Source: Polyangium mundeleinium
GTDB taxonomy: Bacteria > Myxococcota_A > Polyangia > Polyangiales > Polyangiaceae
Direction of reading: 5' to 3'
Length of the DNA stretch: 64,000 bases
Assembly (NCBI RefSeq): GCF_028369105.1
Contig: NZ_JAQNDO010000001.1
Span: 10,882,501-10,946,500, forward strand
The translations under genes were made by a program, and so were the position numbers. Below are positions 4,432 through 8,303 of the stretch, in pieces; the stretch's first letter is position 1; the number at the start of each line of letters is the position of its first letter. Below the pieces are notes generated by a model. That model did no database searches and was not told the origin of the DNA. It worked only from the letters and a program-made list of their open reading frames with translations.

Positions 4432-5817
4432 ATGGCCCCTTTCCACCAAGAACGCGAGGCCGACGTCGTCATCGTCGGCGCCGGCCTCGCGGGCCTCTCG
4501 GCGGCGGACGCGCTGACCCGCATGGGAAAACGCGTCGTGGTGCTCGAAGCGCGGGATCGCGTTGGCGGGCGCACGCTGGGCCGGGAGATCGGGGGCCGTG
4601 TCCTCGACCTCGGGGGGCAATGGCTCGGCGCGGGGCAACGTCGCCTCGGGCGCCTCGCCGCCGAGCTCGGCGTCGCGACGTTTCCCACGTACCATTCTGG
4701 ACAAAAAGTCCTGGTGCGGGACGGGCGTGTCTCGACGTATGCGGGGACCATTCCCTCGCTCCCCGTCCCGGGGCTCGTCGCGCTGCACCTCGCGCTGCGC
4801 AAGCTCGACGCGCTCGCGGCGCGGCTGCCCGAAGGAAGGTCGCTCGCCGCGGCCGAGGCTTCGTCGTGGGACGAAGAAACGCTCGAAACCGCCGCCCGCG
4901 AGCTCCTCCTGCGTACCGACGTGCGCGAGCTCTTCGACGCGGCGGTGCGGGTGGTCTTCGGCGCCGAGCCGCGCGAGATATCGATGCTGTATTTCCTCGC
5001 GTACCTGCGCGCGGGCGGTGGCCTCATGCGGCTCGTCGAAATCGAGGGCGGGGCGCAGGAGCGGCGCTTCGTGGGCAGCGCGCAGGAGCTCTCGATCCGC
5101 CTCGCCGCGCGGCTCGGGGACGCCGTCGTGCTCTCCGCACCGGCACGGCGCATCGAGCAGGACGGGCGCGGCGTGGTCGTGACCTCGGACGAGATCGTGG
5201 TGCGGGCGCAGTATGTGATTGTCGCCGTCCCTCCAGCGCTCGCGGGCCGCATCGACTATCGCCCGCTCCTGCCCGTCGTGCGGGACCAGCTCACGCAACG
5301 GATGCCGATGGGCTCCACGGTGAAATGCATTGCGGTCTACGATCGGCCTTTCTGGCGCGAGGCGGGGCTCTCGGGGGAGGCCGTGACGAGCACGGGGCCG
5401 ATGTCGGTCGTGTTCGACAATGGTTCGCACGACGGCGCGGTGCATTCGCTCCTCGGGTTCGTCGTGGGGCAAAAGGCGCGCGTCTTCTCGGAGAGGCCCT
5501 TGGACGAGCGGCGCGCGGTGGTGCTCGGGAGCCTCGGCCGCATGTTCGGCGAGCGGGCGCTCCGGCCGAGCGAATACGTCGAGTTCGACTGGTCGACGGA
5601 AGAATGGACGCGCGGCTGTCCCGTCGGCGTCCTGGGGCCCGGGGCGATGACCGGCGTGGGGCGCGCGCTGCGCGAGCCGGTGGGACGAATCCACTGGGCG
5701 GGCACCGAGACGGCGACGGAATGGACGGGCTACATGGAGGGGGCGCTCGAATCGGGCGAGCGGGCGGCTGGTGAGGTGGGAGCGCGGTTCGAGGGCGGGG
5801 CCCAGGGCCGTTCCTGA
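4432..5817 (+). CDS. Flavin-containing monoamine oxidase family protein
   Basis: The 461-aa protein starts with the dinucleotide-binding fold (VVIVGAGLAGLSAADAL, about residues 11-27). EARDRVGGRT follows, and the C-terminal FAD-contact motif HWAGTETATEWTGYMEGA lies near residue 425, all typical of FAD-dependent amine oxidases. It should oxidise a primary or secondary amine to an imine with release of H2O2; the substrate is unknown. No signal peptide is seen, so it is likely cytoplasmic. ATG at 4432 follows AAAGGAG and lies 20 nt after the thiolase stop, which suggests co-transcription. The downstream neighbour is convergent. Confidence 0.88.
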   Translation: MAPFHQEREADVVIVGAGLAGLSAADALTRMGKRVVVLEARDRVGGRTLGREIGGRVLDLGGQWLGAGQRRLGRLAAELGVATFPTYHSGQKVLVRDGRVSTYAGTIPSLPVPGLVALHLALRKLDALAARLPEGRSLAAAEASSWDEETLETAARELLLRTDVRELFDAAVRVVFGAEPREISMLYFLAYLRAGGGLMRLVEIEGGAQERRFVGSAQELSIRLAARLGDAVVLSAPARRIEQDGRGVVVTSDEIVVRAQYVIVAVPPALAGRIDYRPLLPVVRDQLTQRMPMGSTVKCIAVYDRPFWREAGLSGEAVTSTGPMSVVFDNGSHDGAVHSLLGFVVGQKARVFSERPLDERRAVVLGSLGRMFGERALRPSEYVEFDWSTEEWTRGCPVGVLGPGAMTGVGRALREPVGRIHWAGTETATEWTGYMEGALESGERAAGEVGARFEGGAQGRS

Positions 5818-5848
5818 GCCAGCGCGGCGCGCTCCACCGGCGAGCGCA

Positions 5849-6310
5849 TCAAAGGGCGCTCAATCGATCCAGATCGGCCGGCTTGAAATCGTCCCATACG
5901 TCGTCCTCCGTGTCCGGCTTTCGATCGTTGCCGCAGGAGATGACGTTGAGCTCTTTCCCTGCGCACAGAATTCTGTACGGGATGCCCCAGGGATCGTCCG
6001 TTTTTTTTCCGTCGATCTTCCCGGCGACCACGAGCTCCTCGATGGTCGGGCAATCTTCGGTGGCGCCTTGCAAATCGAGCTCGACGTACGTCTGAGCCGC
6101 CGTCTTGATCACGGACGCGCCGATGAGCGCGCTCCGGATGCGCGCCTTCTTGTACTCGGGAAACACGAGGTACGTCGCGCCCGACGAGATGATCGCCATG
6201 ATCGCGATGACGAGGAGCACCTCGACCAGCGTCACGCCGCGGGATGCCCGGCTCCAGCGCCGCCGCGTGCCCCCGAGCCTGCTGCCAACGAAGGAATTCT
6301 GGTTCTTCAT
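5849..6310 (-). CDS. Type II secretion/type IV pilin-like pseudopilin (GspG-like)
   Basis: This 153-aa protein has a long basic leader followed by a classic prepilin peptidase site: SRG then VTLVEVLLVIAIMAII, with Glu at +5 of the mature N terminus. The C-terminal half contains DPWGIPYRILC and a DTEDDVWDDF stretch reminiscent of GspG pseudopilins. Family members form the pseudopilus in type II secretion or minor pilins. It stands alone here with no other gsp or pil genes. ATG at 6310 is chosen to begin just ahead of the leader; longer in-frame extensions lack homology. The leader of about 30 residues is longer than usual. Confidence 0.75.
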   Translation of the reverse strand: MKNQNSFVGSRLGGTRRRWSRASRGVTLVEVLLVIAIMAIISSGATYLVFPEYKKARIRSALIGASVIKTAAQTYVELDLQGATEDCPTIEELVVAGKIDGKKTDDPWGIPYRILCAGKELNVISCGNDRKPDTEDDVWDDFKPADLDRLSAL

Positions 6311-6464
6311 GGCAAACGCGGATGCTACCGCGTGCCTCGTAAGACTGTCCAGTCTTACGTACGCCTGGAGAAGCAACACAGCGACCAGCGCTCCCAACCC
6401 GTTCCGTTCGCGTAGAACGTGAGCCAAACTGGACGCCACACCCGCGTTCGTGCACGCTCGCCCC

Positions 6465-6869
6465 ATGAGCGTCGAGGAGACGTGGGTGGGCCTACACTAC
6501 ATTCGATTCGAGCCTGACGATCTCCTCCTGATGGAGTTCCACGGGCCCATCCTACCCGGCGAGATGGCGGCGCTCGCACGTTTGACGGACGAACGATTGC
6601 TCGCGCGGGGTCGGCTCTTCGTCCTGTGCGACATCTCCGACGCGGGCGGGTTCAGCCACGGATCACGGCACGAGCTGCGGGATCGGCCCCGGAAGCTCCC
6701 TCCGCATTTCGTCGCGTACGTGGGCGCGCCTGCCCCCGTTCGTGTGGTGCTCGATCTCGTCATTCGCGCCACGAGCTCCCTCACGGGCGCGAAAATCGCC
6801 CACCGCTTCTTCGAGACGCAGGCCAAGGCACGCGCTTGGCTCGAAGAGATGCACACGAAGGCCGCGTGA
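6465..6869 (+). CDS. SpoIIAA/STAS-like small protein
   Basis: The 134-aa protein has the alternating pattern of the SpoIIAA-like family: an N-terminal beta hairpin (IRFEPDDLLLMEFHG), a helix, LFVLCDISDAGGF, and a C-terminal strand-helix ending in HRFFETQAKARAWLEE. I see no signal peptide or membrane segment. The convergent neighbour is a Ser/Thr kinase whose C-terminal ~110 residues have the same pattern (VLANISNFP...FFTTEDDALRWLR). The pair may be a kinase and its partner, or a domain duplication. ATG at 6465 begins MSVEETW; the Shine-Dalgarno sequence is weak. Confidence 0.6.
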   Translation: MSVEETWVGLHYIRFEPDDLLLMEFHGPILPGEMAALARLTDERLLARGRLFVLCDISDAGGFSHGSRHELRDRPRKLPPHFVAYVGAPAPVRVVLDLVIRATSSLTGAKIAHRFFETQAKARAWLEEMHTKAA

Positions 6870-6899
6870 GGCCTACACGGGATGGTCAGGGCCTGGCGC

Positions 6900-8303
6900 T
6901 CATTTCCCCGTGCGCAGCCACCGCAACGCGTCGTCCTCCGTCGTGAAAAACGAATACAGCGGCAACCCCGTCTCGACCGAGAGCCTCTGAATCTGCATAC
7001 GCCCGAGCGCGCTGCTGACGAGGTTCGCCGCGCGCACGAGGCCATTCTCCCGCGCGTAGGTCATCGTCTTCTCGACGAACGCGCTCACGTCGGGCTTCTG
7101 CGGCGGGAAATTCGAGATGTTCGCCAGGACGTACCAGGGGTTGCCGCGGAGCGGCTTCGTCTTGCGCTCGAACTCTTCCCAGTAGGCCTTGCCATCCCCG
7201 ACGTCCCAAAACCCCCACACGTCGACCCGGACCACGTTCGTCGCGCCATCGACCGTGACCAAAAACCCTTTTTTCGCGACTTCCCGTGCCGGGGGCGGAG
7301 TCGGCTGCGGGCGCGAAGCCGGCTGCGGGCGCGAAGCCGGCTGCGGAACGGAAGCCGGCGCCTTGGGTTTGGCGGATGGAACCTGCTCCTGCGACGAACG
7401 CACGCTCTCGCGCACGAGGTCCGTGAGGGCCGCGATGGCCACGGTCGCCCGCGGAAAACGAGCCGCCACCGATTTCGCGGTCACGCCGGCGAACCAGACA
7501 TCGAATCCGGCAGGGAGATCCACGCCCTTGCGGCGCTTGGCCCGCGTCTCCGGCGACTCGCGCGGGCCGTCGGAGATGTCAGCCGCGAGCAGGATCGGCG
7601 AGCCGTCGCGCTCGAGCTCCACGGCCCAGTAAGGCTCGCCGACGAGCAATTCATAGGCGAGCTGGCCGAGCGCATAAATGTCGGCGGCCGGGCCGACGTC
7701 CTGCGAGGCCTCGACCTGCTCGGGCGCCATGTAGAGCGGCGTGCCGAGGATGCCGCGGGTCGTGATGCCGGTGACGACCGGCTCGACCGTCTTCACGACG
7801 CCGAAATCGAGGACCTTGATGCAAGGCGTACCGTCGTCGCGCCACGAGAGGAAAATGTTCTCGGGCTTGAGATCACGGTGGACGACGCCCGCGGCGTGGA
7901 GCCTGTCGAGGGCGATCGCGGTCTGGGCGAGATAACGGAGGACGTCCTCGATGGCGATTCGAATGCCCTGATCGAGGACCGCACCGAGGTCGCGGCCGCG
8001 GAGCAGCTCCATCACGAGGAAAGGCAGCTCGGAGCCGGGATCGATGCCGACGTCGAGGATCCGGACGATGTGATCACTCTCGATCGCACCCGTCGCCCGT
8101 GCTTCGAGCTCGAAGCGCTTGCGGCCCTGCTCGCTCGTCACGAGATTCGGGAGCATGACTTTGAGGGCGCGCCGGCTCGAGGTCCTCTCGTCGGCGACCT
8201 CGTAGACCGTGCCCATGCCGCCGGACTTGATCGCCCGGATCACCCGATAACGGCCGTGGAAAAGCGTATCCGGGGGGAGGAGCGCGGGGCGGGGCAGCAG
8301 CAT
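6900..8303 (-). CDS. Hanks-type Ser/Thr kinase with C-terminal SpoIIAA-like domain
   Basis: The 467-aa protein carries a complete kinase domain (about residues 17-285): glycine loop KSGGMGTVYE, catalytic HRDLKPENIF near residue 141, DFGVVK, and GTPLYMAPEQ. A low-complexity Pro/Ser/Arg/Gln linker (ASRPQP repeats, around residue 320) leads to a C-terminal alpha/beta domain (~residues 345-467) resembling SpoIIAA-like/STAS-fold proteins. No transmembrane helix is present, so it is a soluble kinase, unlike the two TM kinases in this window. A convergent free-standing SpoIIAA-like gene lies 30 nt away. argG lies 58 nt upstream on the same strand. Confidence 0.88.
   Translation of the reverse strand: MLLPRPALLPPDTLFHGRYRVIRAIKSGGMGTVYEVADERTSSRRALKVMLPNLVTSEQGRKRFELEARATGAIESDHIVRILDVGIDPGSELPFLVMELLRGRDLGAVLDQGIRIAIEDVLRYLAQTAIALDRLHAAGVVHRDLKPENIFLSWRDDGTPCIKVLDFGVVKTVEPVVTGITTRGILGTPLYMAPEQVEASQDVGPAADIYALGQLAYELLVGEPYWAVELERDGSPILLAADISDGPRESPETRAKRRKGVDLPAGFDVWFAGVTAKSVAARFPRATVAIAALTDLVRESVRSSQEQVPSAKPKAPASVPQPASRPQPASRPQPTPPPAREVAKKGFLVTVDGATNVVRVDVWGFWDVGDGKAYWEEFERKTKPLRGNPWYVLANISNFPPQKPDVSAFVEKTMTYARENGLVRAANLVSSALGRMQIQRLSVETGLPLYSFFTTEDDALRWLRTGK
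7303..7356 (-). repeat. 18-bp tandem repeat encoding ASRPQP
   Basis: Two identical 18-bp units (7303-7320, 7321-7338) and a diverged third (7339-7356) encode the Ala-Ser-Arg-Pro-Gln-Pro linker of the kinase. The unit keeps the frame, so copy-number change would only lengthen or shorten the linker between the kinase and the SpoIIAA-like domain. Confidence 0.85.

Follow-up and report, generated by a model that had tools for sequence, protein, structure and literature searches.

A Hanks-type kinase family with a SpoIIAA-like tail in Polyangium and two further genera, and a small protein encoded beside one member

The window analysed here, a stretch of 64,000 nucleotides from the 13.25-Mb genome of Polyangium mundeleinium, encodes a Hanks-type Ser/Thr kinase with a SpoIIAA-like domain as its C-terminal tail, and next to it a small free-standing SpoIIAA-like protein. 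The architecture of the kinase is more interesting than the neighbouring small protein. The reading that is tentatively favoured is that the kinase is soluble, that its regulatory tail would respond to a lipid or a membrane in place of a hydrophobic segment, and that the small protein would be an ordinary member of its family whose nearness to the kinase is incidental. The novelty is real but modest, namely a kinase family with a SpoIIAA-like domain where related kinases seem to be membrane-anchored, and it is to be set apart from a tempting story of partner switching or duplication, for which the evidence falls short.

The two genes are convergent, and the coordinates (Table 1) confirm the spacing of 30 nt between stop codons given in the initial annotation. 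An alternative GTG start for the small-protein ORF is possible at 6450. The kinase matches PF00069 (Pkinase) with 131.6 bits against a curated cut-off of 31.7, and the HRD, DFG and APE motifs are all present in its translation, which places it among the Hanks-type kinases. It has no strongly hydrophobic stretch, the best 19-residue hydropathy mean being 1.2. Upstream of the small gene, a stretch of about 0.6 kb (approximately 5797-6421) that includes the prepilin-like gene is without a match at the equivalent position of P. fumosum and of Polyangium sp. 6x1. About 4 kb from the pair, at 1518-2837 on the minus strand, the window also encodes a response-regulator/PAS/STAS protein (PF00072, PF08448, PF01740), which is a true STAS protein.

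Table 1. Features of the kinase locus, in window coordinates
Feature	Position	Strand	Basis or remark
FAD amine oxidase	4432..5817	+	ends 647 nt before the small gene, in the same orientation
Prepilin-like gene	5849..6313	-	intervenes between amine oxidase and small gene in the window
SpoIIAA-like protein, 134 aa	6465..6869	+	ORF call; ATG start at 6465
Gap between convergent stop codons	6870..6899		30 nt
Hanks-type Ser/Thr kinase with C-terminal SpoIIAA-like domain, 467 aa	6900..8303	-	Pkinase match, translation
SpoIIAA-like tail domain of the kinase, residues ~348-467	6900..7262	-	profiles, model
Pro/Ala-rich linker, kinase domain to tail	7263..7400	-	limits approximate, by eye

Matches to the tail occur in 26 of the 183 genomes of the order. 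Kinases that carry it were found in at least 13 of the 183, a lower bound given that loci were examined for the best matches among the 26. These kinases amount to 19 copies in three genera (two in every Polyangium genome, six in a second genus with one per genome, and one in a third genus), and a kinase domain was found in all 19. The 19 kinase domains form a clade of 21 rows (100/100) together with two further kinases of Polyangium, which score best among the other kinases at the examined loci (closer ones may exist outside those loci). These two have a hydrophobic stretch, as judged by eye, followed by a Pro/Ser/Thr-rich end, and neither of these comparison kinases has a SpoIIAA-like match. 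The tree does not separate the internal order of the 21-row clade, which has four branches, so that the tail may have been lost just as well as gained; an exchange between membrane anchor and SpoIIAA-like tail would therefore be read in either direction. A literature search, thin on subscription papers, found no paper on a fusion of a Hanks kinase with a SpoIIAA-like domain. The fusion is new within the scope of that search, both kinds of domain being already known.

The widely kept convergent neighbour of this kinase family is the gene for a protein of about 450 residues, not that for the small protein. For tail kinases other than those of the window type, a homologue of the ~450-aa protein is convergent with the kinase in all 12 loci compared (13 in all), across three genera, including L022 3695-5905, L119 97-1464 and L138 1854-3176. 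At L140, a called 123-aa ORF lies between the kinase gene and that for the ~450-aa protein. A cyclic-nucleotide-binding domain is present in all three of the ~450-aa proteins that were scanned. For the six kinase copies of the window type, no homologue of the protein turned up at a distance of up to 1.5 kb.

That the kinase tail and the free-standing protein share a domain, as the initial annotation had proposed, is borne out as distant homology by the comparison of profiles. Family profiles are needed for this, since the two sequences alone are insufficient to demonstrate the likeness: direct BLASTP of the small protein against the tail gives a 14-residue match with an E value of 0.082, and MAFFT misaligned small proteins and tails. 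With hhalign, 25 small-family proteins aligned to 16 tail-family proteins at 96.7% (E 4.3e-10) over 110 columns, which covers most of the domain. When the comparison was made to nine kinase tails only, the result was 91.1% (E 1e-6) with a score of 41.6, against which the best of 30 column shuffles reached 19.6 and a reversed profile 14.7. A profile of three sequences from the small subfamily left the tails undetected (20.2%, 21 off-register columns). An HMM seeded with the tail and run for three iterations recruited the small protein of the window with an E value of 7.6e-8, among 39 matches. Judged by these profiles, the small protein and the kinase tail are distant homologues.

Against PF11964, the small protein scores 18.7 bits (E 0.003), under the cut-off of 25, and the L024 gene, from the same clade, scores 31.4 bits. 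Given that such clade-mates pass, the small protein is a relative that lies under the curated threshold. The kinase tail has no PF11964 match at E<=10; L023, a free-standing protein from the tail clade, scores 34.3 bits with the same cut-off of 25. There was no match to PF01740 (STAS) at E<=10 for the small protein, the kinase or the tail, and an NCBIfam scan of the small protein returned nothing.

The common C-terminal helix motif that was noted at the outset can be written F..(T/D)E..A..WL, and it matches core residues of beta5 and alpha4 throughout the family. As described for SpoIIAA-like proteins, a conserved cluster of Ala88 and Gly91 in beta4, Phe114 in beta5 and Ala120, Trp123 and Leu124 in alpha4 helps alpha4 to pack on the sheet (PMC2954212). 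The beta5 Phe and the alpha4 Ala, Trp and Leu occur in both the small family and the tails. They are invariant across 18 kinase tails, and among the 37 free-standing members of the P. mundeleinium genome, the window's included, there is Ala at position 122 in 34, Trp at 125 in 26 and Leu at 126 in 24. As for the beta4 Gly, Gly87 is invariant in 25 small-family rows, and the strand taken as beta4 in the tails has no Gly. The C-terminal motif indicates a fold family, not a partnership.

Both domains probably belong, as far as models and profiles suggest, to the SpoIIAA-like (STAS/CRAL-TRIO) fold group. AlphaFold2 was given the window sequence with two relatives for the small protein and with four for the tail; a joint alignment of eight small proteins and tails was misaligned and was therefore left out of folding. 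The tail model is of low confidence (pLDDT 53.9), with the order strand-strand-helix-strand-helix-strand-strand-strand-helix. Its top 14 rows in VIA-align are all STAS or SpoIIAA-like and span the domain, with Z from 7.6 to 5.8 (2q3l 6.2, 2ook 6.1, and stressosome STAS domains among the top matches), where Z below 8 is suggestive and may mean a common arrangement alone. Unrelated S41 proteases come right after in the ranking, with Z of 5.8-5.6. Foldseek alone found nothing for the tail model at E<=0.001 and placed SpoIIAA 1h4y at rank 18. The small-protein model is weak (pLDDT 49.9) and gave no usable structural match. The small-family profile did give matches to solved structures, all of them weak (3bl4, E 0.0079; 2q3l, 0.019; a stressosome protein, 0.024). 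The STAS-type fold suggested by the initial annotation is thus weakly supported by the top rows of the tail model and by the small-family profile, and finds no such support in the model of the small protein itself. By sequence, the tail profile had no credible match among solved structures, and none was found with L023. Designed helical repeats that the tail profile matched (E 0.00024-0.0048) were judged false, given that no stretch passed on its own.

The SpoIIAA-like tail appears to take the place of a hydrophobic, probably transmembrane, segment found in the closest other kinases examined. For 2q3l and 2ook, a nonpolar cavity is described that opens or closes as helices alpha2 and alpha3 move, and insertion of these helices in membranes is proposed (PMC2954212). 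By analogy, alpha2 and alpha3 of the tail could form a lid that covers a nonpolar cavity and is able to dip into the membrane, and a lipid-like ligand or contact with the membrane might recruit the kinase or alter its activity. Such a lipid- or membrane-responsive tail is preferred on account of this analogy together with the lack of a hydrophobic segment in the kinase. Across 18 of the 19 tails (the copy in G036, which has an insertion, was omitted), 40 of 124 positions are invariant. With segment limits set by the author, the invariant positions number 9 of 21 in the loop and alpha2, 5 of 11 in alpha3, 4 of 8 in beta4, 3 of 8 in beta3 and 4 of 11 in alpha4; given that beta4 and alpha4 are also conserved, conservation does not single out the lid. 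The tail-kinase family offers a tractable test of lipid or membrane sensing by bacterial SpoIIAA-like domains.

The main rival, which is possible if on the unlikely side, also proceeds by analogy and takes the tail as a dimerisation module, such that contacts between SpoIIAA-like domains would pair the kinase domains for activation without a ligand. Stressosome STAS domains, which do assemble, are among the best matches to the tail model. The protein of 2ook is described as a dimer through its beta-sheets, but the crystal contacts of 2q3l are given as weak and possibly artefactual (PMC2954212).

The kinase is present in all six Polyangium genomes, and the small gene adjoins it in three of them (G000, G003 and G002, with gaps of 30, 30 and 236 nt). 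In a fourth (G001), about 2 kb and three ORFs part the small gene from the kinase; the ORFs encode 239, 76 and 99 aa, and the 99-aa product is of ParE type. Within that interval, at L060 950-1476, the 76-aa ORF and the ParE-type toxin gene overlap by 4 nt. In the remaining two (G004 and G005), the small gene was not found at the kinase locus, where the kinase gene is intact. These two genomes carry elsewhere a sister subfamily with 52-58% identity, which is also present in G002 and G003 and for which no kinase was seen within 1.5 kb.

The small protein is also linked by position to the upstream amine oxidase, whose gene has the same orientation; the distance from its end to the small gene is 47 nt in G003, 84 nt in G001 and 176 nt in G002. 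The small protein may work with this enzyme rather than with the kinase, for example by carrying a nonpolar substrate, although this is unlikely. In two species (G001 and G002) the small gene is closer to the oxidase than to the kinase, and in G001 the small gene is parted from the kinase by the 2 kb and three ORFs described above. Against this, the kinase is nearer in the other two (G000 and G003, 30 nt in both), the prepilin-like gene intervenes on the opposite strand in the window, and G004 retains the oxidase in the absence of the small gene.

Partner switching between the kinase and the small protein, one of the readings suggested by the initial annotation, is doubtful. In a version with a Hanks-type kinase, the tail would bind the small protein, the kinase would phosphorylate it on Ser64 at the start of alpha2, and its choice of a third partner would change. 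Adjacency in three of six species and a distance of about 2 kb in a fourth speak for such a mechanism. Against it, the small gene was not found at the locus in two species with an intact kinase gene, which leaves it there in 4 of 6. The phospho-serine of SpoIIAA at the start of alpha2 is reported to correspond to Ser66 of 2q3l (PMC2954212), which aligns with Ser64 of the small protein in a mapping that is uncertain by one or two residues. That column is Ser or Thr in 22 of the 37 members from the P. mundeleinium genome, where columns average 0.10, which favours a phospho-switch; however, column 58 is equally rich in Ser or Thr (22/37), and Ser and Thr are common helix caps. Where the window protein has Ser64, one of four orthologues (that in G001) has Asn. 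All 13 kinase tails that were counted, out of 19, have Lys there, and the tails are therefore unlikely to be phospho-switches at this site. As far as the sequences go, the free-standing SpoIIAA-like proteins might be.

The surroundings of other family genes also bear on partner switching. Of 62 neighbours of such genes, two have kinase domains, four have response-regulator domains and two have histidine-kinase domains, and no dominant neighbour family was found among the 25 of 82 neighbour families covered. Family genes lie beside a kinase in 3 of 38 cases (L037, L042 and the window), with 1.0-2.2 expected and a P of 0.08-0.38 for three or more, where the expectation took 150-329 kinases in the genome (150 of 329 candidates were scored). 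A general link of free-standing family members to kinases, which was considered, thus has no support. By chance, only about 0.013 family genes would be expected next to either of the two tail kinases, a figure that, though computed after the fact, somewhat favours a link between the kinase and the small gene. On balance, we infer that the kinase and the small protein are probably not partners and that their nearness is most likely incidental. It is more doubtful still that the tail recruits free-standing SpoIIAA-like proteins in general, its neighbour being the first among at least 37, and phosphorylates Ser or Thr at the start of alpha2; if so, the expanded family would serve as a reservoir of phospho-switches or of lipid carriers.

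In the P. mundeleinium genome, the family to which the small protein belongs has at least 37 members. A search of this genome with the small protein gave 47 matches at E<=10, self included, and 37 at E<0.01. The gene caller, which is a simple composition model, called no family gene in L033, L038 and L053, which had matches in the genome search (E 6.9e-8, 6.3e-7 and 0.006). Six tandem pairs of small SpoIIAA-like genes occur in the genome (L029, L036, L042, L044, L046 and L048). No role assigned to this large family of free-standing SpoIIAA-like proteins came up in a literature search.

In a tree of 89 domains, a tail clade of 27 rows (100/100) is separated from a small-family clade of 62 rows (100/100). 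Six of 95 rows had been dropped, namely WIN_1518 (STAS, PF01740), the two look-alikes L022_11309 and L083_9931, and in addition L062, L037_9041 and L067. The tree is built on 135 columns with long branches and an unsettled bootstrap, and the split between tails and small family is its best-supported feature. The small protein of the window sits within nested groups of 4, 8 and 15 rows inside the small-family clade. The nearest kin of the kinase tail are its orthologues and the tail of a second kinase (54-56% identity, in all six Polyangium genomes), followed by free-standing proteins such as L023. In-place duplication, in which the small gene and the kinase tail would have derived one from the other at the locus, could appeal to adjacency and distant homology, but it is out, with barely any probability left to it, on account of these separate and strongly supported clades, the tail grouping with the second kinase and with free-standing proteins elsewhere rather than with the small protein. 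Around the free-standing tail relatives, that at L023 6971-7399 and those of L078-L082 lie 12-14 nt from a gene of about 334 aa, which in L023 (12 nt away) and L078 encodes a family-2 glycosyltransferase. At L064 715-1473, a bacterial protein that matches the GRAS domain (PF03514, E 3.3e-24) is encoded next to a tail relative.

The window domains can be compared with four known systems. They are like the PF11964/DUF3478 proteins (2q3l, 2ook and 3bl4) in length and in the order of strands and helices, and they have the same core of beta5 Phe and alpha4 Ala-x-x-Trp-Leu, but both are under the Pfam cut-off and the tail forms part of a Hanks kinase. The 2009 paper on SpoIIAA-like proteins lists proteins of a single domain and, as the one fusion, a protein with a UspA domain (PMC2954212). 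The STAS domains (PF01740) of SpoIIAA/RsbV and of the stressosome proteins RsbR and RsbS resemble the window domains in the overall arrangement of the weak tail model and in a weak match of the small-family profile, whereas the window domains lack a PF01740 match and the tails have Lys at the phospho-serine position in 13 of 13. The kinase of classical partner switching is of the GHKL type, not the Hanks type.

Rv0516c is a protein of the STAS type. It is described as an anti-anti-sigma substrate of the mycobacterial Hanks-type kinase PknD, with Thr2 as the phosphosite (PMC4601284). The combination of a Hanks-type kinase and an anti-anti-sigma protein is thus similar to that of the window kinase and a SpoIIAA-like protein, but the window kinase itself carries the domain, and the pair described here is known as neighbours, not as kinase and substrate. 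Finally, close kinase domains occur in Hanks kinases of myxobacteria whose C-terminal part contains a hydrophobic (transmembrane) segment; the window kinase differs from them in having a SpoIIAA-like tail instead.
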